The position numbers and the translations under genes are program-made. From Bdellovibrio sp. SKB1291214 (GTDB taxonomy: Bacteria > Bdellovibrionota > Bdellovibrionia > Bdellovibrionales > Bdellovibrionaceae), in contig NZ_CP106855.1 in NCBI RefSeq assembly GCF_002209355.2, forward strand, positions 1,240,001 through 1,304,000: a stretch of DNA of 64,000 bases, written 5' to 3'. The first letter of the stretch is position 1. Every line of letters begins with the position of its first letter. Positions 18,607-27,745 of this stretch are shown piece after piece. The notes under the pieces were generated by a model, which did no database searches, had not been told where the DNA came from, and saw nothing but the letters and a program-made list of their open reading frames with translations.

Positions 18607-19323
18607 TTAGAAATTTCCGGAACGTCTCATCAAACCATCACGATTTTTGATGATGATTTCTTTACCGTTCAAATCGATCAAACCTTCGTTTTTGAATTCA
18701 GTCAGGTGACGAGACAACGATTCATTAATCGTGCTAGCCAATTGCGCGAACTCATTACGAGTCAGTTTTAGATTCAAAGAGATGCCATTTGGCGTTTGCG
18801 CACCAAAACGGTCTGCTAAAATCACCAATTGGTAAGCGATACGCTCTTGAACAGATGCCAAATAATGCAATTGGCTCGTGTTTTCGAAAGACTCAAGATC
18901 GTTTACTGATTGATTCAAAAGCAATTTAACCATTGGTGACGCTTGTGCCATAGCAACTTGGATCAACTCGCGTGGGTACAACCACAACACTGTCGATTTC
19001 ACGGCTTTTGCGTGGCATTGAGCAACGCTGCCTTTTACCAAGGCTTTGTAGCCGAAGTATTCGCCAGGTGACACAAGTTTAGTAACGTATTCATTTGTCG
19101 TCGTACGGCCACGTGCGTGAGAACGATTTACGACAACTTTCACACATCCTGATTGCACATAATACAATCCTTTGGGAGTGTCGCCCTCTTTAAAGATCAT
19201 CTCCTCTTCTTTGAGGTGAATCACTTCGTAAGGAACATTCGAAGTTGTTGGGATGTTCAAGTTTTGTTGGCCCATAAAACCTAGGGAGTTAACTCCGCCG
19301 TTGAGTATCGTTTGCGATTCCAT
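18607..19323 (-). CDS. Crp/Fnr-family transcription regulator
   Basis: 238 residues. A cyclic-nucleotide-binding-type jelly roll (about 33-145: EGDTPKGLYYVQSGCVKVVV, SPGEYFGYKALV) is joined by a long helix to a winged helix-turn-helix (LTRNEFAQLASTINESLSRHLTEFKNEGLI, about 188-217). The cAMP-contact residues of Crp (RSSC-type) and the Fnr cysteine cluster are not evident, so the effector is unknown. GGAGG ribosome site 10 bases before ATG. The 265-base gap to the next, divergent gene is AT-rich; it may carry promoters for both. Confidence 0.92.
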   Translation of the reverse strand: MESQTILNGGVNSLGFMGQQNLNIPTTSNVPYEVIHLKEEEMIFKEGDTPKGLYYVQSGCVKVVVNRSHARGRTTTNEYVTKLVSPGEYFGYKALVKGSVAQCHAKAVKSTVLWLYPRELIQVAMAQASPMVKLLLNQSVNDLESFENTSQLHYLASVQERIAYQLVILADRFGAQTPNGISLNLKLTRNEFAQLASTINESLSRHLTEFKNEGLIDLNGKEIIIKNRDGLMRRSGNF

Positions 19324-19588
19324 GCTCTTAGTCCTCCGTGCTTTATCTGAGTTGTTGTTTGCTAACGTTTAGGCCATCCTAAACTGGTATAAAACAAGAG
19401 CCTAATTGAAATTAAGACATAACCGACTTGTAAGAGTTGACCATTAGGGGATTGAAATGTTTTGCCTTGACTCATACTCTGGACGCTCGTACTTTCAGCC
19501 CGACAAAAAATCTTAAAAAATTTGTGAAATCAAACGCTTATTAAATGCGCAGACGCATGAAATTTTGCATGTGTGAAGGAATCATCAA

Positions 19589-20566
19589 ATGACAAAAAAG
19601 TTTTTCGTTACACTGTTTTTTCTGTCAATCAGCACCACAACTTTCGCAAACATTAAAGTCGGCTTAGTACTTGATAAAGGTGGTAAGGACGACAAATCTT
19701 TTAACTCCGCAGCTTACGCTGGAGCCACTAAGGCGGAGAAAGATCTTAAGATCGAATTGAAGTACGTTGAAGCAACTGACACAAACGCAATCGAAAATCT
19801 CCACCGCAATTTCGCTCGTAAAAACTATGACCTCGTTATCGGTGTTGGCTTTGCACAAACTGACGCTGTTAAAAAAGTGGCAGCGCAATTTCCAAAAGTA
19901 AAATTCGCCATCGTCGATGGTGAAATCACGGCGGCGAATGTTCGCTCTTTGATGTTTGAAGAGCACGAAGGTTCATTCCTAGTTGGTGCATTGGCAGCAA
20001 TGGCTTCCAAAACTCACTCTGTTGGTTTTATCGGCGGAATGGATATTCCTTTGATCCGCCGTTTTGCGATGGGCTATGTTGCCGGCGCAAAATATGTGGA
20101 TCCTAAAATCAACATTTCTGAAAACTATGTGGGCGTAACTGGCGAAGCTTGGAACAACCCTGCAAAATCTAAAGAGCTTGCCCTTGCTCAGTACGGCAAA
20201 AACATCGATGTGATCTTTGTTGCCGCAGGTGCATCAAACACAGGTGTGTTCGATGCTGCTGAAGAAAAGAAAAAATTCGCAATTGGTGTTGATTCGAATC
20301 AGAACTGGATGAAACCTGGCACAATCCTAACTTCCATGTTGAAGGCAGTTGATGTAGCTGTGTATGAAACGATCAAGGAAACCCAAGCCGGTCAGTTCAA
20401 GGCAGAGGTCGCTCGCTTCGGACTTAAAAACAACGGCGTGGATTACACCCTTGATAAACATAATGAAAAGCTAATAACTCCGGAAATGAAGAAGAAAGTC
20501 GACGAGATTAAAAAGAAAATCATCGCAGGCCAAATCCAAGTTCCAGATTACTATAAAAAGAAGTAA
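19589..20566 (+). CDS. BMP-family nucleoside-binding periplasmic protein of ABC importer
   Basis: 325 residues. Signal peptide 1-20 (cleaved after TFA, no lipobox Cys, so a soluble periplasmic protein), then the BMP/PnrA fold: KVGLVLDKGGKDDKSFNSAAYAG, VIGVGFAQTDAV, EEHEGSFLVGALAAMAS, VGFIGGMDIPLIRRF and FAIGVDSNQNW. BMP proteins bind purine or other nucleosides. First gene of a five-gene operon with its ATPase, two permeases and a secreted S1/P1 nuclease. A CRP-like or other operator is not evident, although the leader has the small palindrome ATGCGcagaCGCAT around 19545. Confidence 0.93.
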   Translation: MTKKFFVTLFFLSISTTTFANIKVGLVLDKGGKDDKSFNSAAYAGATKAEKDLKIELKYVEATDTNAIENLHRNFARKNYDLVIGVGFAQTDAVKKVAAQFPKVKFAIVDGEITAANVRSLMFEEHEGSFLVGALAAMASKTHSVGFIGGMDIPLIRRFAMGYVAGAKYVDPKINISENYVGVTGEAWNNPAKSKELALAQYGKNIDVIFVAAGASNTGVFDAAEEKKKFAIGVDSNQNWMKPGTILTSMLKAVDVAVYETIKETQAGQFKAEVARFGLKNNGVDYTLDKHNEKLITPEMKKKVDEIKKKIIAGQIQVPDYYKKK

Positions 20567-20571
20567 GTCCG

Positions 20572-22047
20572 ATGAGCCAAGTCCCTGCTGTTGAATTCCG
20601 AAATATCTCTAAAATTTTCGGTGACTGTGTCGCAAACGAAGACATCTCTTTCAAAGTCACAGCAGGTACGATCCACGGGATCGTGGGCGAAAACGGCGCT
20701 GGCAAATCTACGGCCATGAAAATCCTTTTTGGACTTTACACACCTTCGGGTGGTGAATTCCTGGTTCATGGCTCCACTCAAGAATTTCACTCCTCTATTG
20801 ACGCTATGAAAGCCAAAATCGGCATGGTTCACCAACACTTTATGTTGGCAGAACCATTAACTGCTTTGGATAACATCTTGTTACAACAAGATGGCGGCCC
20901 CTTCTCTCTTTTGCCCCGCGCTGAGCAATTGAAACATTTAAACGACGTAGCCGCTCGTTATGGTTTCGAAGTGGATCTAACCGCAAAGGTTGAAGATCTT
21001 TCTGTGGGTGCCCAACAACGAGTCGAGATTCTGAAAATCCTTTCACAAAACTCTGAGATCTTGATCTTGGATGAACCGACGGCGGTTTTAACTCCGCAAG
21101 AAGTTCAAGACTTCTTTAAAAACCTTCGCCAACTTAAAGCTGAAGGTAAAACGATTCTGATCATCACGCACAAACTTAAAGAAGTGATGGCGTTGACTGA
21201 TGAAGTAACTGTGTTCCGTGCAGGTAAAGTTATCGGTTGTCGTAAGACTTCCGAAACATCTATTGCCGAACTTGCCGAGATGATGGTGGGTCGTCGTTTG
21301 CAAAATCCTGTTGAGCGCTCCACTCAAATCGATCCAAAGCCTGTGATTGAAGTTCAAAATCTGACAGCTCAGCTTGGAAACCATAAAATTGAAAACATGA
21401 ACCTGACAGTTCGTACTCGTGAAGTTGTCGGCATCGCTGGCGTTGAAGGCAACGGTCAGGACATTTTGATCCGCGCACTTCTCGATAAGCACGAGTTTTC
21501 AAAAAAGCATCTGTCTGGAAAAATTATGATTCATGGCAAGGTCGGTTCTTTCCCAGAGGACCGTTTGCGCTTCGGTGTTTTGCCTTCGCGACCTGCCTAT
21601 GAAAACTATATCTTGGGTCAACAGCGCACGGCTAAGTTTGCCCGTGGGATTTTCTTGAAAATTAAAGACATCGTTACTGCGACTCGCGCGGCGATGGAAC
21701 AATACGATGTTCGTCCTCGCAATGAGGGCCTGGCTTTCTCTCGCTTCTCTGGTGGTAACCAGCAGAAGCTGGTCGTAGCGCGTGCTTTGTTGCAACAGCC
21801 GCAAGCAGTTATTGCCGCTCAACCGACACGTGGTGTGGATATCGGTGCTATTGAATTTATTCATAACGAAATTCGCGCGGCTCGCGATGCCGGTGCCGGG
21901 GTTTTATTGATTTCTTCTGAGTTGGACGAGTTGATGGCTCTTTCTGATCGTATTTTGGTTCTTTATAAAGGTCGCTTTGTGGCTGAATTGTCTCGTAAGG
22001 AATTTGATGAGATCAAAATTGGTGCGGCGATGGGAGGTGGCCATTGA
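20572..22047 (+). CDS. Nucleoside ABC importer, tandem ATPase (YufO/NupO-like)
   Basis: 491 residues with two nucleotide-binding domains. The first has intact Walker A GENGAGKST (about 38-46), signature LSVGAQQRVEILK and Walker B ILILDEPTAVL. The second is degenerate, as is usual in this family: GVEGNGQD replaces Walker A and AAQPTRGVDIGA replaces Walker B, while the signature FSGGNQQKLVVARAL is intact. It energises nucleoside uptake. Starts 5 bases after the binding-protein gene and overlaps the first permease by 4 bases. Confidence 0.94.
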   Translation: MSQVPAVEFRNISKIFGDCVANEDISFKVTAGTIHGIVGENGAGKSTAMKILFGLYTPSGGEFLVHGSTQEFHSSIDAMKAKIGMVHQHFMLAEPLTALDNILLQQDGGPFSLLPRAEQLKHLNDVAARYGFEVDLTAKVEDLSVGAQQRVEILKILSQNSEILILDEPTAVLTPQEVQDFFKNLRQLKAEGKTILIITHKLKEVMALTDEVTVFRAGKVIGCRKTSETSIAELAEMMVGRRLQNPVERSTQIDPKPVIEVQNLTAQLGNHKIENMNLTVRTREVVGIAGVEGNGQDILIRALLDKHEFSKKHLSGKIMIHGKVGSFPEDRLRFGVLPSRPAYENYILGQQRTAKFARGIFLKIKDIVTATRAAMEQYDVRPRNEGLAFSRFSGGNQQKLVVARALLQQPQAVIAAQPTRGVDIGAIEFIHNEIRAARDAGAGVLLISSELDELMALSDRILVLYKGRFVAELSRKEFDEIKIGAAMGGGH

Positions 22048-23075
22048 AACGCTTCCTAGGTTTCATCATTGGATTGGTTGCAGCTTTGATGCTGACGTTC
22101 TTTGCTGGCGAGAATCCAATTAATATCTTTATGATCCTGGTTAAGAGTGCCTTTGGTTCCACTTATGACCTGGGTATGACTTTGTCTTACGCAACACCGA
22201 TGATCTTTTGCGGTCTTTCGGTGGCAATTGGTTTCCATGCGGGAATGTTCAATATCGGCGCTGAAGGACAACTTACGATGGCGGCTGTCACTGCGGCAGC
22301 CATCGGTGTTTTCTTTCCGACTGTTCCATTTCCATTGGCTCCCCTTATCGCTTTCCTTGGTGCTTTGGCAGCAGGAGCTTTCTGGGGTTGGATCGTGGGT
22401 ATGCTAAAAGCTTTCCGCGGAAGCCACGAAGTTATCATCACAATTATGATGAACTTCATCGCCGCTGGTCTGGCGAGCTGGTTTGCTCTTAAAGTTATTC
22501 CAAATCCTAATTCACAAAATCCTGAAACAGCGATGGTGTCTGCGAACTATATGTTTAAAGACTACGATTTAATTGCGCGTTTCTTCCCCGATACTCCAGT
22601 GAATGCATCCTTGGTTTTTGCAATCGTCCTGGCAGTTTTCATGTGGATATTCCTCTGGAAAACCACGTGGGGCTTTGAATTGCGAGCGGTGGGTTCAAAC
22701 CCTGAAGCAGCACAACGTTCTGGTATTTCCGCTAAACGTGTTCAAATCATCGCAATGGCTTTGGCTGGTGCGTGCGCCGGGTGTGTCGCTTTATCTGAAG
22801 TTATCGGCAGCGCTGGCCAGTATCGCGTGGGTTTTTCTCCAGACTATGGTTTCATCGGTATCGCGGTGGCGTTGCTAGCAGCAAATAATCCCTTGGGCAT
22901 TATAGCAGCTGGATTCTTGATGGGCGCTCTTCACAAGGGTGCTTCTGATCTGGATTTAGAAACTTCTACGATCACTCGTGATTTCTCTCGTATCATTCAG
23001 GCCTTCATTATTCTTGGTGTGGCAGCAAGTGCTTACTGGGAATATCGTTCGCGCCGCCAAAGGAAGAAGGACTAA
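22044..23075 (+). CDS. Nucleoside ABC importer permease 1 (YufP/NupP-like)
   Basis: 343 residues, about ten hydrophobic segments, BPD_transp_2 family. AIGFHAGMFNIGAEGQLTMAA is the family's cytoplasmic coupling motif, and GFELRAVGSNPEAAQRSGI is the EAA-like loop. TTG start within the ATPase stop (TTGA), preceded by GGGAGG. Pairs with the next gene to form the channel. Confidence 0.93.
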   Translation: MKRFLGFIIGLVAALMLTFFAGENPINIFMILVKSAFGSTYDLGMTLSYATPMIFCGLSVAIGFHAGMFNIGAEGQLTMAAVTAAAIGVFFPTVPFPLAPLIAFLGALAAGAFWGWIVGMLKAFRGSHEVIITIMMNFIAAGLASWFALKVIPNPNSQNPETAMVSANYMFKDYDLIARFFPDTPVNASLVFAIVLAVFMWIFLWKTTWGFELRAVGSNPEAAQRSGISAKRVQIIAMALAGACAGCVALSEVIGSAGQYRVGFSPDYGFIGIAVALLAANNPLGIIAAGFLMGALHKGASDLDLETSTITRDFSRIIQAFIILGVAASAYWEYRSRRQRKKD

Positions 23076-23950
23076 TGGAATTCTTTTTCATGATCTTGGC
23101 ATTGGGATTAGCAACACTTCGTTTGGCAACGCCACTGATTTTTGCATCTATGGGCGGTATGATGAGCGAACGTTCCGGTGTGGTTAACGTTGCACTTGAA
23201 AGCTTTATGCTGGTTGGCGCCTTCACAGGTTCTGTCGTGGCGGTATATTCTTCCTCTGCTTGGTTTGGTTGGGGAGCCGCTCTGCTTGCAGGTCTTTTAA
23301 TTGGCGCTTTGTATGCTTTATTCGTGATTGAACTGGGAGCTGATCAAATTGTGACGGGCATGGCGTTCAATTTGTTGGTTATGGGTGTAATTCCATTTGC
23401 TACAAAAATTCTTTTCAGTTCGACAGGCTCTACTCCCCCGCTTCCTGCTGAATTCCGCTTTAATTATGAACCCTTGATTTTTGCCTTTGTGTTGGTAGCG
23501 TTACTGACATTGTGGCTAAAAAAATCTCGTTCAGGACTGTGGCTTTTGTTTGCCGGCGAAAATCCAGAAGCGTTGATTTCAGCTGGCGTCAGTGTTCGCA
23601 AAGTGCGTTGGGCTGCTGTGTCCTTAAGTGGAGCCTTCGCAGCATGGGGTGGCGCAAGTTTGTCGTTGTTCCTAGCGTCTTCGTATTCACCAATGATGTC
23701 TGGTGGTCGTGGTTTTATGGCTTTGGCGGCTTTGATCTTTGGTAAATGGAAACCACTTCCGGCATTCTTTGCCTGCTTGTTATTTGCGTTTGCCGATGCC
23801 GTGCAAATTCGCCTGCAGGGCGTGCAAATTGGTGGCGTCACCGTTCCGGTTCAATTTATTCAGATCTTACCATACGTCGTTACGATCGTGGCGTTAGCAG
23901 GGTTTATCGGTGCAAGCCGTCCACCTAAAGCTTTGGGTCGCGAGCTGTAA
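23075..23950 (+). CDS. Nucleoside ABC importer permease 2 (YufQ/NupQ-like)
   Basis: 291 residues, about eight hydrophobic segments. LRLATPLIFASMGGMMSERSGVVNVALESFMLVGA is the conserved first half and the GENPEALISAGVSVRKVRW loop the coupling site. Start overlaps the previous stop by one base (TAATG) with AAGGAAGAAGG before it. The S1/P1 nuclease gene follows after 14 bases with its own AAAGGAG. Confidence 0.93.
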   Translation: MEFFFMILALGLATLRLATPLIFASMGGMMSERSGVVNVALESFMLVGAFTGSVVAVYSSSAWFGWGAALLAGLLIGALYALFVIELGADQIVTGMAFNLLVMGVIPFATKILFSSTGSTPPLPAEFRFNYEPLIFAFVLVALLTLWLKKSRSGLWLLFAGENPEALISAGVSVRKVRWAAVSLSGAFAAWGGASLSLFLASSYSPMMSGGRGFMALAALIFGKWKPLPAFFACLLFAFADAVQIRLQGVQIGGVTVPVQFIQILPYVVTIVALAGFIGASRPPKALGREL

Positions 23951-23964
23951 TAAAGGAGTTCATC

Positions 23965-25041
23965 ATGTTTAAATTAATTTTACCTTTGCTGTTGGTATCT
24001 TCATCAGCATTTGCCTGGGGAGGTCGCGGACACGATGCTATTTGCCGCGCGGCTGTCTTTTTGGTTAAAGAGGAAGGTTTGAAAGATTATTTGCGTAACA
24101 AACCGCAAATGATGGGTCACCTTTGCAACATTCCTGACTTTTACTGGAAAAGTTTGGGCGGAGACGCTGCGAAACATGGCAATCCTGCCCACTTTATTGA
24201 TATCGAAGTTATCGGACTTAAAGTTGCTGACATTCCTACTGACTACAAAAAAATCGTGACTGACTACACAGGCAAAGAGAACAAATTTAGAAATGACGGA
24301 GTGACGATTAAAGACATTCCGACTGAATTTGGCTCAGCTTGGTGGAGAGCTGATCAATTCGTAAATCGTATTGGCGCTTTAAACAAAGAATTTGCGGCGG
24401 CAAAACCGCCAGCAAACTTTAAAGAAGAACAAGACGAAAACCTTCCATTCAATAAATTGGCATACCAAATGGCAGTGGATATGGGTTTGATGGGGCACTT
24501 TGTTGGAGACATCTCTCAACCTTTCCATACGACAGCTGACTATGACGGTTGGGCAACAGGCCACGGCGGCATCCACGCTTTCTTTGAAGACGCTGTCGTC
24601 AGCGAGTTCGATGGCGATCTTGATTGGTTGGTGCTTAAACAGGCTCGCACAATCAAGAATCCTTCGTTCTTAAAACCCGCGACTGTCATCGAAAAGATGA
24701 AGGCTCTGTCAGTGATCTCAAACACAGAAGTTCCAAAACTTTTTAAATTAGATCCAGTGACAAAACCATCAGAAGTTAAAAAAGAACATGGCATGGAAAT
24801 CAGAACCAAGGCAGAAAGAAAACCAGCCTCTGTTGCTTTCAAGACGATGAAACCGATCATTGTGAATGACATGGCTCGTGGCGCTTTATTGTTAGCGAAT
24901 TTGTGGGATGAAGCCTACGTAAAAGCAGGTAAGCCTAAGATCGGAGCCTACAAGTCTTACAAGTATCCGTTCACAGTGGATTTCGTAATGCCGGACTATT
25001 ATTCAATTCCAGCAGCAGAAGCTAAAACGGAAAAAAAATAA
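23965..25041 (+). CDS. Secreted S1/P1-family zinc nuclease
   Basis: 358 residues. Signal peptide 1-17; cleavage before Trp18 gives the mature N-terminus WGGRGHD, where Trp1 and His6 are Zn ligands in P1 nuclease. Further ligands fit: Asp in NIPDFYW, His in PAHFIDI, HxxxD in GHFVGDISQPFH and His in GGIHAFFED. The enzyme cuts single-stranded RNA/DNA and removes 3'-phosphates from nucleotides, yielding 5'-nucleotides and nucleosides. Being last in the nucleoside importer operon it probably feeds that importer (inference). In a predator the substrate could be prey nucleic acid. Confidence 0.92.
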   Translation: MFKLILPLLLVSSSAFAWGGRGHDAICRAAVFLVKEEGLKDYLRNKPQMMGHLCNIPDFYWKSLGGDAAKHGNPAHFIDIEVIGLKVADIPTDYKKIVTDYTGKENKFRNDGVTIKDIPTEFGSAWWRADQFVNRIGALNKEFAAAKPPANFKEEQDENLPFNKLAYQMAVDMGLMGHFVGDISQPFHTTADYDGWATGHGGIHAFFEDAVVSEFDGDLDWLVLKQARTIKNPSFLKPATVIEKMKALSVISNTEVPKLFKLDPVTKPSEVKKEHGMEIRTKAERKPASVAFKTMKPIIVNDMARGALLLANLWDEAYVKAGKPKIGAYKSYKYPFTVDFVMPDYYSIPAAEAKTEKK

Positions 25042-25050
25042 GAAATCACG

Positions 25051-25084
25051 AAGGGCCACTGGTAACAGGGGCCCATTTATTTTA
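25051..25084. terminator. Imperfect terminator between convergent nuclease and oxyR genes
   Basis: GGGCC ... GGCCC arms with a 12-base loop, followed on the plus strand by ATTTATTTT. Overlaps the oxyR stop. Weaker than other terminators here. Confidence 0.45.
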
Positions 25085-26032
25085 ACAAATTTCCAGCACC
25101 TCGTGGGTGTTGGTTTTTACTCTCGACACACACTCCGGCAGGCAATCCATCACACAATTTTTGATGGCATCAATTACATCCAGCTTCCAATGATCTCGAC
25201 GATACACAAAGCTGACCTCGCGGGTGGGCTTTGCACCTTCAAAGCCTCGTACATGTTTACTACGTTCTGATGTCGACATAAGTTCGGCCATCAGAGCGGG
25301 AATCATCGTATATCCGCGACTTTGCTGAACTAAATTTCTTAAGGTATCTAAGCTGCCACTTTGAAAGTGTACATTTCTGATAACGGTATCGTGATCTTTT
25401 GAAATTGAACAGAAATTGGCTATCTGATCTTTAAAGCAATTCCCGTCTTTAAGCATCCACATCTCTGAGGCATTCATGTCTTGTTTGCGAACCAGATCTT
25501 TTGCAAGCAAGGGATGCCCCTGAGATAGATAAAGATAAAAATGCTCGTAGAACAGTGGATGGACCTTTAAACCTTGTTGAATGGGAGTCGCCATGATCAC
25601 CCCATCTAAGCGGTCATTCTTTAGCTCTTGTAACAACGTCTCTGTTTTTAACTCTTCAATATACAATTCAACATCTGGATACTTTTTTGAGAACGTCTCT
25701 ACGAACAATGGCAGCAGATAGCTTGAGATGGTCGGGATCACTCCCAAATGGAATTCCCCAGAAACTCCTTTTGACTGAGAGTTTGCGACATGCAAAAGCT
25801 TGCGATGTTCTCGCAACACTATAGCTGCTTGTTCCAGGAACTTTTCACCTTCCGTGGTTGGTAAGATAGGTTTTTGCAGACGATCAAATATAATCATGCC
25901 GACTTCGTCTTCTAGTTTTTGAATCTGCTGACTTAATGTTGGCTGAGAAATATTACATTCGTCAGCTGCTTTACCAAAATGACGATGTTTCTCGACCGCG
26001 AGAACATATTCTAACTGACTTAATGTAGGCAT
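25082..26032 (-). CDS. oxyR: OxyR-type LysR peroxide sensor
   Basis: 316 residues. LysR helix-turn-helix at 1-60 (FGKAADECNISQPTLSQQIQKLEDEVG). The effector domain contains DGNCFKDQIANFCS, matching the redox pair of E. coli OxyR (C199-x8-C208), here also Cys-x8-Cys. This is the disulphide switch that senses hydrogen peroxide, which makes this OxyR rather than a generic LysR. It diverges from a catalase gene, and a good OxyR tandem box lies between. One oddity is a C-terminus with extra cysteines (DCLPECVSRV... EIC). Confidence 0.94.
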   Translation of the reverse strand: MPTLSQLEYVLAVEKHRHFGKAADECNISQPTLSQQIQKLEDEVGMIIFDRLQKPILPTTEGEKFLEQAAIVLREHRKLLHVANSQSKGVSGEFHLGVIPTISSYLLPLFVETFSKKYPDVELYIEELKTETLLQELKNDRLDGVIMATPIQQGLKVHPLFYEHFYLYLSQGHPLLAKDLVRKQDMNASEMWMLKDGNCFKDQIANFCSISKDHDTVIRNVHFQSGSLDTLRNLVQQSRGYTMIPALMAELMSTSERSKHVRGFEGAKPTREVSFVYRRDHWKLDVIDAIKNCVMDCLPECVSRVKTNTHEVLEIC

Positions 26033-26067
26033 AAACCGAATGCGTCCTTTACATAAGTGAAGCGCCC

Positions 26068-26104
26068 ATAGAGTTGATCTATCGAAGCGATAGAATCAAT
26101 CGAA
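26068..26104. promoter_or_regulatory. OxyR binding box between oxyR and catalase gene
   Basis: ATAG-N7-CTAT-N7-ATAG-N7-CGAA. The known OxyR consensus is four ATAG/CTAT elements at 7-base spacing; three are exact here and spacing is exact throughout. It ends about 24 bases before a GATAAT (26128-26133) that could be the katA -10, placing the box next to the -35 region as at OxyR-activated promoters. It could also repress oxyR. Confidence 0.82.
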
Positions 26105-26173
26105 TACCAATTGAGATTATCACCACCGATAATAGCAATACCTCCAACGTAGAAAGAAAGGAAAATCTACAGC

Positions 26174-27745
26174 ATGAAACTCTTTACTGTTGCGGCATCC
26201 GTGATGCTCGTAAGTGGGATTGCTATTGCCAAAACCACACTGACTCGTGAAAACGGCGCGCCTGTAGGCGACAATCAAAACTCTCAAACAGCTGGTGAAA
26301 CAGGTCCTGTTCTTCTTCAGGATACTCACCTTGTCGAAAAACTTGCGCGTTTTGATCGAGAAAGAACTCCAGAACGTGTCGTGCACGCTCGTGGTACCGG
26401 CGCCTATGGTCAATTCGTTAGTGCAGCTGATAATTCCGCGATCACACGTGCGGATCTATTTTCCAAAAAAGGCAAAAAAACAAAAGTGTTTGTTCGTTTC
26501 TCCTCTGTGATCCATCCAAGCGGATCTCCTGAAACTTTGCGTGATCCACGTGGGTTTGCGACGAAGTTTTATACTGAAGAAGGCAACTGGGACCTTGTGG
26601 GAAATAATTTGCCCGTATTTTTTATTCGCGATGCAATGAAATTCCCCGACATGGTTCATTCTCTGAAGCCAAGTCCAGTAACTAACATTCAAGATCCCAA
26701 CAGATTCTTTGATTTCTTTGCTCACGTTCCAGAGTCCATCAATATGCTAACTTACGTGTATTCAGATCTGGGCACGCCAGCAAGTTATCGCGAAATGGAC
26801 GGCAATGGTGTTCACGCTTATAAATTCGTGAACAAAAAAGGTGAAGTCACTTACGTAAAATTTCATTGGAAAAGCCTGAATGGGATCAAAAATCTTTCTG
26901 ACGATGAAGTCGCAAAAATGCAAGGCAAGAACTTCAATCATATGACCGATGATCTGTACTCTTCCATCCGGGCAAAGAAGTTCCCTTCTTGGGAGCTAGA
27001 GGCCCAGCTGCTGAAACCTGAAGAGTTGAATAACTTCGATTTTAATCCACTGGATGCAACTAAAGAATGGGTTCGCATTCCAGGGTTAAAAGTCGTAAAA
27101 CTTGGGACCATGACCTTGAACGAAGTTCCGGAGAACTTTTTCGAACATACAGAACAAGCGGCATTGGCGCCTTCGAATATCGTTCCTGGGATTGAAGCCT
27201 CTGAAGACCGCCTGTTGCAAGGTCGCATGTTCTCTTACGCCGATACTCAACGCTACAGAATTGGTGTAAATGCTTTGCAGTTACCGGTAAACCGCCCTTT
27301 AAACGTGAATTCACACGGCCAGCAAGGCCATATGAATGGTAAAATTACTAAGGGTGAAGTGAACTATCAACCAAATAGCTTTAATGGAAATCCAGATCGC
27401 GCAGAAGGCATTTACTCGCAAGCAGATGGATTTAAACAAAGCTCGTTGCCTTTAAGTGGTGCGACTCAACAACAGATGATCAAAAAGACTTTGAACTTCC
27501 GTCAAGCTGGCGAAACTTACAGAAGCTTTTCTGAAAAAGAGCGCGCAGCATTGATCAATAACTTTGCCGGCGACCTCCTTGCCGTCAAAAATATTAAAAT
27601 TCGCAATCAAATCGTAGCTCACACATACGCGGCCGACACTGAGTATGGTGAGCGCTTGGCAAAAGCAGCTAAGGCTGACTTGCCTGAGGTTAAACGAATT
27701 GCTTCTGCATTGAATGACGACACTAAAAAAGTTGCTGCTCAATAA
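26174..27745 (+). CDS. katA: Secreted monofunctional haem catalase
   Basis: 523 residues. Residues 1-19 form a Sec signal peptide (cleaved after IAIA), so the enzyme acts in the periplasm or outside, unlike most catalases. Catalytic His in RVVHARGTGAYG (about 72), Asn in VGNNLPVFFIRDAMKFPD (about 145) and proximal haem Tyr in RMFSYADTQRYR (about 356) are all present; the small-subunit size points to clade 3. Decomposes hydrogen peroxide. Followed by a secreted ankyrin gene, as with katB-ankB of Pseudomonas aeruginosa, where AnkB supports KatB activity. Controlled by the OxyR box upstream. Confidence 0.95.
   Translation: MKLFTVAASVMLVSGIAIAKTTLTRENGAPVGDNQNSQTAGETGPVLLQDTHLVEKLARFDRERTPERVVHARGTGAYGQFVSAADNSAITRADLFSKKGKKTKVFVRFSSVIHPSGSPETLRDPRGFATKFYTEEGNWDLVGNNLPVFFIRDAMKFPDMVHSLKPSPVTNIQDPNRFFDFFAHVPESINMLTYVYSDLGTPASYREMDGNGVHAYKFVNKKGEVTYVKFHWKSLNGIKNLSDDEVAKMQGKNFNHMTDDLYSSIRAKKFPSWELEAQLLKPEELNNFDFNPLDATKEWVRIPGLKVVKLGTMTLNEVPENFFEHTEQAALAPSNIVPGIEASEDRLLQGRMFSYADTQRYRIGVNALQLPVNRPLNVNSHGQQGHMNGKITKGEVNYQPNSFNGNPDRAEGIYSQADGFKQSSLPLSGATQQQMIKKTLNFRQAGETYRSFSEKERAALINNFAGDLLAVKNIKIRNQIVAHTYAADTEYGERLAKAAKADLPEVKRIASALNDDTKKVAAQ

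Follow-up and report, generated by a model that had tools for sequence, protein, structure and literature searches.

Does this locus combine the digestion of foreign nucleic acid and the uptake of the resulting nucleosides in a single operon? It resides on a stretch of 64,000 nucleotides of Bdellovibrio sp. SKB1291214 (contig NZ_CP106855.1, positions 1,240,001 to 1,304,000), hereafter called the window, in which five genes on the plus strand (19589-25041) encode an ATP-binding cassette (ABC) importer of the nucleoside type followed by a zinc enzyme related to S1/P1 nucleases. The operon is real, conserved and family-specific. It is built of parts of known kinds, its last gene encoding a divergent enzyme. 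It probably serves the digestion of nucleic acid by the exported enzyme and the import of nucleosides for salvage.

Gene order and transcription of the operon

The first gene (19589-20566) encodes a nucleoside-binding protein of the PnrA/Bmp family (PF02608) with a predicted Sec signal and no lipobox. It is followed by the gene of a tandem ABC ATPase (20572-22047), which contains two PF00005 stretches, and by the genes of permease 1 (22044-23075), which begins with TTG and overlaps the ATPase gene by 4 bases, and permease 2 (23075-23950), which overlaps the permease 1 gene by one base. The two permeases matched PF02653 with 145 and 105 bits, respectively. The fifth gene (23965-25041), for short the nuclease gene, encodes a zinc phosphoesterase of the S1/P1-nuclease/phospholipase C superfamily that belongs to a divergent subfamily and is predicted to be exported by Sec. 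The coordinates of these open reading frames, with successive gaps of 5, -4, -1 and 14 bases, agreed with the gene positions and gaps of the original prediction, which had been made from the letters of the DNA and its open reading frames.

A promoter-like element, TTGACT-N17-TACTTT, is located upstream of the operon on the plus strand (19467-19495). Its CTTGAC and TA..TT blocks are conserved in the aligned upstream regions of 11 loci of the Bdellovibrio family. The same alignment disclosed a second conserved element on this strand, TTTGTGAAATCAAACGCTTA (19521-19540), possibly a regulator site or a second part of the promoter, which with some changes also occurs upstream of the nuclease gene at locus L104. 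Downstream of the nuclease gene, a plus-strand hairpin followed by the U-rich tail AUUUAUUUUAA (25053-25074; -15.4 kcal/mol, z = -3.3) is the likely terminator of the operon. Folding revealed no stable hairpin at the junction of the permease 2 and nuclease genes (z = +1.2), whose 14 intervening bases include a good ribosome site. Promoter-like matches in the region were at chance level (nine found, 10.4 expected), and a scan with Rfam gave no match. A separately transcribed nuclease gene was rejected, as there is no terminator-like fold in front of it and promoter-like matches did not exceed the chance number. The single transcription unit that had been proposed was thus borne out computationally, no promoter and terminator having been found that set the nuclease gene apart, and one operon of five genes is well supported by these features of the sequence.

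Locus L104 gave a further view of the upstream region. The genome that harbors it, Bdellovibrio sp. UBA4095 (G065, 99% complete), contains no permease match, and its nuclease gene lies approximately 275 bases from a gene encoding a regulator of the CRP/FNR family, which also adjoins the operon in the window. The region upstream of the L104 nuclease gene could be aligned to that upstream of the binding-protein gene in the window with a score of 156, compared to 39 or less in 300 shuffles, and the aligned part includes the TTGACT...TA..TT element. Alignment to the region directly upstream of the nuclease gene in the window gave a score of 21, which is at chance level. The simplest reading is that L104 has lost the importer genes by deletion, which placed its nuclease gene under the operon promoter. 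This arrangement supports both a shared promoter and a role of the nuclease that is independent of the importer.

Linkage of the importer and nuclease genes in Bdellovibrionota

The synteny check covered a sample of 192 genomes of the phylum. In every importer-bearing Bdellovibrio genome (15 of 15), the nuclease gene directly follows the permease 2 gene in the same order, on the same strand and less than 50 bases apart, and the linkage is also kept in six of the seven genomes from other genera of the family that possess both genes. The gaps between permease 2 and nuclease genes mostly range from -8 to 50 bases, with 68-195 bases in a few cases. Outside the family, the two genes were adjacent in none of the 15 genomes containing both (14 on different contigs, one at a distance of 147 kb), a count that is limited by contig breaks. 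The arrangement exceeds chance, and the linkage, which is peculiar to this bacterial family, was lost on several occasions. On a tree of 55 nucleases, adjacency changed eight times, five of these changes being forced by well-supported branches, compared to a mean of 18.6 after shuffling. All adjacent cases fell into one group of 43 rows, mostly Pseudobdellovibrionaceae, whose branch support is moderate (88/98). Judging from this tree, the linkage was probably gained once and then lost several times.

The losses bear on the possibility that the genes are co-transcribed without being functionally coupled, the nuclease having a separate role in degrading nucleic acid, whether extracellular or from prey, while the importer joined it or was lost by the chance of neighborhood. 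In the importer-less loci L104, L109, L114, L117, L120 and L124 the nuclease gene still resides beside the CRP gene, Bdellovibrio sp. qaytius (L110, G159) carries the importer about 2.2 Mb away from the nuclease, and genome G127 retains the importer without the nuclease. On the other hand, the linkage with short gaps has persisted throughout the genus Bdellovibrio and in a large part of the family, and the functions of nuclease and importer match. We therefore regard an uncoupled operon as possible, if rather doubtful. The importer without the nuclease is widespread in Bdellovibrionota and the nuclease persists in importer-less relatives, so that the specialization for growth in the bdelloplast, which had also been claimed, is unproven. 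The complete operon is also present in G005 (2,657,893 bases), which may, judging by its size, represent the epibiotic B. exovorus; in that case the operon would not depend on a phase of growth within prey.

Some loci showed further variation. In L065, L107, L113, L121 and L071 the binding protein is 66-70% identical to that of the window, and the ATPase and permeases just 35-45%. Outside the family, other genes stand behind the importer, encoding a DUF6588 protein, a beta-keto acid cleavage enzyme (PF05853) or a pseudouridine synthase (L084:6223-8709, L097:2584-4349, L086:7527-8570). In other Bdellovibrionota, permease 2 of some genomes carries at its C-terminus an additional, uncharacterized domain of about 200-270 residues (L086:5833-7521, L088:4729-6540, L092:4809-6527, L097:4377-5954 on the minus strand, L100:4968-6392), and in others this domain is encoded by a separate gene behind permease 2 (L084:6983-7882, L085:7038-7901, L098:6706-7665). 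Because it occurs in both forms, this domain, for which the proteins scanned gave no Pfam match, probably works with the importer.

The exported zinc enzyme

The fifth protein matched PF02265 (S1-P1 nuclease) with 25.7 bits, which is under the cut-off of 29.5, the best stretch comprising 25 residues, and had no match in NCBIfam. PF02265 was matched by each of 27 homologues at E values up to 1, the best being 8e-9. No further S1/P1 paralogues were found in the genome. In all 30 homologues inspected, a signal-like stretch ends right before a Trp, from which we infer that the protein is exported via Sec with Trp18 at the mature N-terminus. Nine zinc-ligand positions (W18, H23, D58, H76, H178, D182, H188, H204 and E208) are invariant in the 27 homologues. 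The original prediction that the zinc ligands are all those of P1 was correct for the presence of the nine positions; it did not hold for the ninth residue. S1/P1 nucleases coordinate zinc by one Trp, three Asp and five His (PMC4144908), and the ninth ligand of SmNuc1 is Asp179 (PMC11705217), whereas the fifth protein possesses one Trp, five His, two Asp and one Glu (E208, 27/27).

An AlphaFold2 model of the protein (predicted local distance difference test score 90.7, predicted template modelling score 0.89) aligned best to S1/P1 nucleases, with Z scores of 17.6-19.5 over 223-237 residues and root-mean-square deviations of 3.3-4.0, followed by phospholipases C with Z scores of 13.7-16.4. Foldseek likewise listed nucleases as its two best matches, phospholipase C following closely. 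The aromatic residue of the base pocket, F77, is F or Y in 27/27 homologues and D79 is D in 21/27; their counterparts in S1 nuclease are Phe81 and Asp83 (PMC5201275). A candidate for the active-site basic residue is K62 (K or R in 27/27), which is located at +4 and not +3 from D58. Signal peptide, zinc-site positions and predicted fold together corroborated the proposed exported zinc enzyme of the P1 superfamily. The protein is a divergent S1/P1-like phosphoesterase that falls outside PF02265 on the two features tested, score and ligand set, but it most likely works like an S1/P1 nuclease.

The fifth protein might instead be mainly a lipid or other phosphodiesterase of the phospholipase C kind that acts on prey membranes and is encoded in the operon only for co-expression. 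Its ninth ligand corresponds to Glu146 of the phospholipase C PC-PLC (PMC10420013), and the spacing of 16 residues between ligands 7 and 8 is closer to the 14 of phospholipase C than to the 24 of SmNuc1, as computed from the published ligand numbers. Weak matches to PF00882, the family of zinc-dependent phospholipase C, were obtained for six of the 27 homologues and none at E up to 1 for the protein of the window. Moreover, phospholipase activity of the plant S1/P1 nuclease TBN1 is reported in a title cited in PMC4144908. However, nucleases were the top fold matches with Z scores that no phospholipase C reached (16.4 or less), all 27 homologues matched PF02265, the distance of 5 from Trp to His and the HF.D motif agree with S1/P1, though the latter may not discriminate, and the partners in the operon are genes of a nucleoside importer. 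A phospholipase function thus appears distinctly unlikely.

Two other features of the protein were observed. An insertion of approximately 50 residues, unexpected from the ligand spacing of S1/P1 nucleases, contains an invariant WWR..Q at residues 126-131, and there are two further invariant Cys, C27 and C54. Insertion and Cys pair look like a signature of the Bdellovibrionota branch of these enzymes.

The importer, the proposed route and related systems

The binding protein scored 239.1 bits against the Bmp/PnrA-like family PF02608 (Pfam cut-off 24.1) and is the sole binding protein of the Bmp family found in the genome. Both ABC_tran stretches of the ATPase and BPD_transp_2 in the two permeases were well over the Pfam cut-offs; in NCBIfam, the ATPase matched sugar/nucleoside-type ATPase families, none of them over the cut-off. 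The closest solved sequences to the binding protein are Lbp, 4pev, TmpC/PnrA, S. pneumoniae PnrA, BmpA and BmpD (159-262 bits), far above the non-nucleoside protein AtzT with 101.9 bits. The crystal of Lbp was modelled with guanosine (PMC9601137), and the pocket of BmpA comprises a base-stacking pair of Phe and the ribose-contacting residues Asp, Asp and Lys (PMC13325309). We transferred the BmpA pocket by alignment and scored its conservation over 51 Bdellovibrionota sequences. D29, D35, F38, N39, D110, F159, V234, D235 and K252 are the same as in BmpA, and D35, F38, N39, D110, F159, D235 and K252 are invariant (51/51), D110, D235 and K252 being the equivalents of the ribose-contacting residues. 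The set D29, D35, F38, N39, D110, F159, W188, D235 and K252 is kept in 49-51 of the 51 sequences. W188 resides in a longer loop (50/51), aligns with a Phe of 4pev and probably stands in for the second stacking Phe of BmpA. Because the closest relatives of solved structure are nucleoside binders and the pocket residues are conserved, the ligand is likely a nucleoside. The proposed nucleoside-type importer is therefore consistent with its families, its solved relatives and the ribose residues, and no indication of a binding protein for a non-nucleoside ligand was found. That the importer carries another ligand, e.g., vitamin B6 or another small molecule, and that the operon does not serve nucleoside salvage is highly improbable, since the only NCBIfam match of the binding protein, a putative B6 family, reached 89.8 bits (cut-off 400), for which reason a B6 importer was rejected, and is outscored by far by nucleoside-binding structures, the ribose residues being invariant.

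In the coupled route that we favor, the operon would be read from the promoter near 19467-19495 to the hairpin at 25053-25074, and signal peptidase would expose Trp18 as N-terminal zinc ligand after Sec export. The enzyme would hydrolyze RNA and single-stranded DNA from the prey or the environment, and possibly convert 3'-nucleotides to nucleosides. These would be captured by the periplasmic binding protein and imported by the ATPase and the two permeases for salvage inside the cell, where three PNP_UDP_1 matches in the genome are candidates for the intracellular step.

Several points weigh against this route. Nuclease and importer can occur apart: on the tree, linkage changed at least five times and, by the best estimate, eight. 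The Glu as ninth ligand and the short loop before ligand 8 resemble phospholipase C, and the second stacking Phe of BmpA is unaligned, with a Thr at this position of the binding protein. Moreover, profile searches of the genome gave no match to the C-terminal domain of UshA-type 5'-nucleotidases (PF02872), PhoA (PF00245), class B acid phosphatase (PF03767), SurE (PF01975) or PhoD (PF09423). Since S1/P1 nucleases chiefly yield 5'-nucleotides (PMC4144908), while the importer is of the nucleoside type and these five common phosphatase families are absent, the route is incomplete, and its description as a complete salvage route was overstated. The 5'-nucleotides would need dephosphorylation by an enzyme outside the operon, perhaps a periplasmic nucleotidase of the prey or a phosphatase of the predator; six metallophosphatase matches were found in the genome. 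Finally, Bdellovibrio takes up and uses nucleoside monophosphates of its prey according to older radiotracer work as cited in PMC7529429, and a nucleoside route would therefore be additional.

A 3'-nucleotidase activity like that of the Leishmania class I (p1/s1) 3'-nucleotidase/nuclease, which serves purine salvage (PMC13232948), would by analogy give nucleosides directly. We tentatively suggest, as a conceivable though not a probable case, that the enzyme represents an as yet unnamed, Bdellovibrionota-centered branch of the P1/phospholipase C superfamily with a mixed P1/phospholipase C zinc site and the extra WWR..Q segment, and that, acting mainly as a 3'-nucleotidase or nuclease, it may feed nucleosides directly to the co-transcribed importer in one dedicated unit of digestion and uptake. 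How prey nucleic acid is converted into that of Bdellovibrio is an old question, for which the operon names a candidate enzyme and importer in one removable unit. L104, as an apparent natural deletion of the importer, makes digestion and uptake separable for study. If the enzyme releases nucleosides, there would be a second route beside the uptake of monophosphates, and an unusual specificity, if true, would raise the interest of the operon.

Upstream, the CRP/FNR-family gene (18607-19323, minus strand; PF00027 and PF13545) is divergent from the operon and shares its intergenic region (19324-19588). It adjoins most loci of the family, including those without importer, and its product is a candidate regulator of the operon. 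Going by the order of genes alone, its counterpart in HD100 may tentatively be Bd0446, which PMC12546842 lists as 'putative cyclic nucleotide binding'. Several blocks of the intergenic region are conserved across Bdellovibrio on both sides and probably represent divergent promoters and a regulator site. Downstream of the nuclease gene lies the convergent gene of an OxyR-like LysR regulator (25082-26032, minus strand), which is divergent from a catalase gene (523 amino acids, signal-like N-terminus) within 25082-27742.

By title and abstract, the papers found on Bdellovibrio nucleases and nucleoside ABC transporters do not describe the operon, and the papers searched report uptake of nucleoside monophosphates but link no uptake genes to a digesting enzyme. 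A nuclease-transporter operon occurs in a mycoplasma. The B. bacteriovorus proteome paper (PMC12546842), in whose main text a term search gave no passage on this operon, names Bd3507, a secreted endonuclease I, as the nuclease raised in the bdelloplast; this protein has been suggested to release nucleotides of the prey while the predator grows, but is annotated as another kind of protein. The Leishmania enzyme likewise belongs to the P1 class, is secreted and serves the salvage of purines from outside the cell, but it is eukaryotic and part of no operon, and for it the dual activity has been demonstrated, whereas that of the fifth protein is conjectural. With SmNuc1 of Stenotrophomonas maltophilia, S1 and P1, the fifth protein shares export, the N-terminal Trp ligand, the nine-ligand site and a similar predicted fold; it differs by Glu instead of Asp as ninth ligand, a loop of reduced length ahead of ligand 8, some 50 extra residues with the invariant WWR..Q between ligands 4 and 5, a long C-terminal part and two invariant Cys. 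Zinc-dependent phospholipase C (PF00882) has the superfamily fold and the Glu ligand in common with it, but its fold score is below that of S1/P1 nucleases and the Pfam match weak or missing. The importers of the Bmp family (T. pallidum PnrA/TmpC, S. pneumoniae PnrA, Borrelia BmpA/BmpD) have the same binding protein, tandem ATPase and two permeases and the same pocket (D29, D35, F38, N39, D110, F159, D235, K252). Unlike these, the Bdellovibrio system employs a free periplasmic protein without lipobox, contains a Trp (W188) in a longer loop, probably in place of the stacking Phe, and carries the nuclease gene after the importer.

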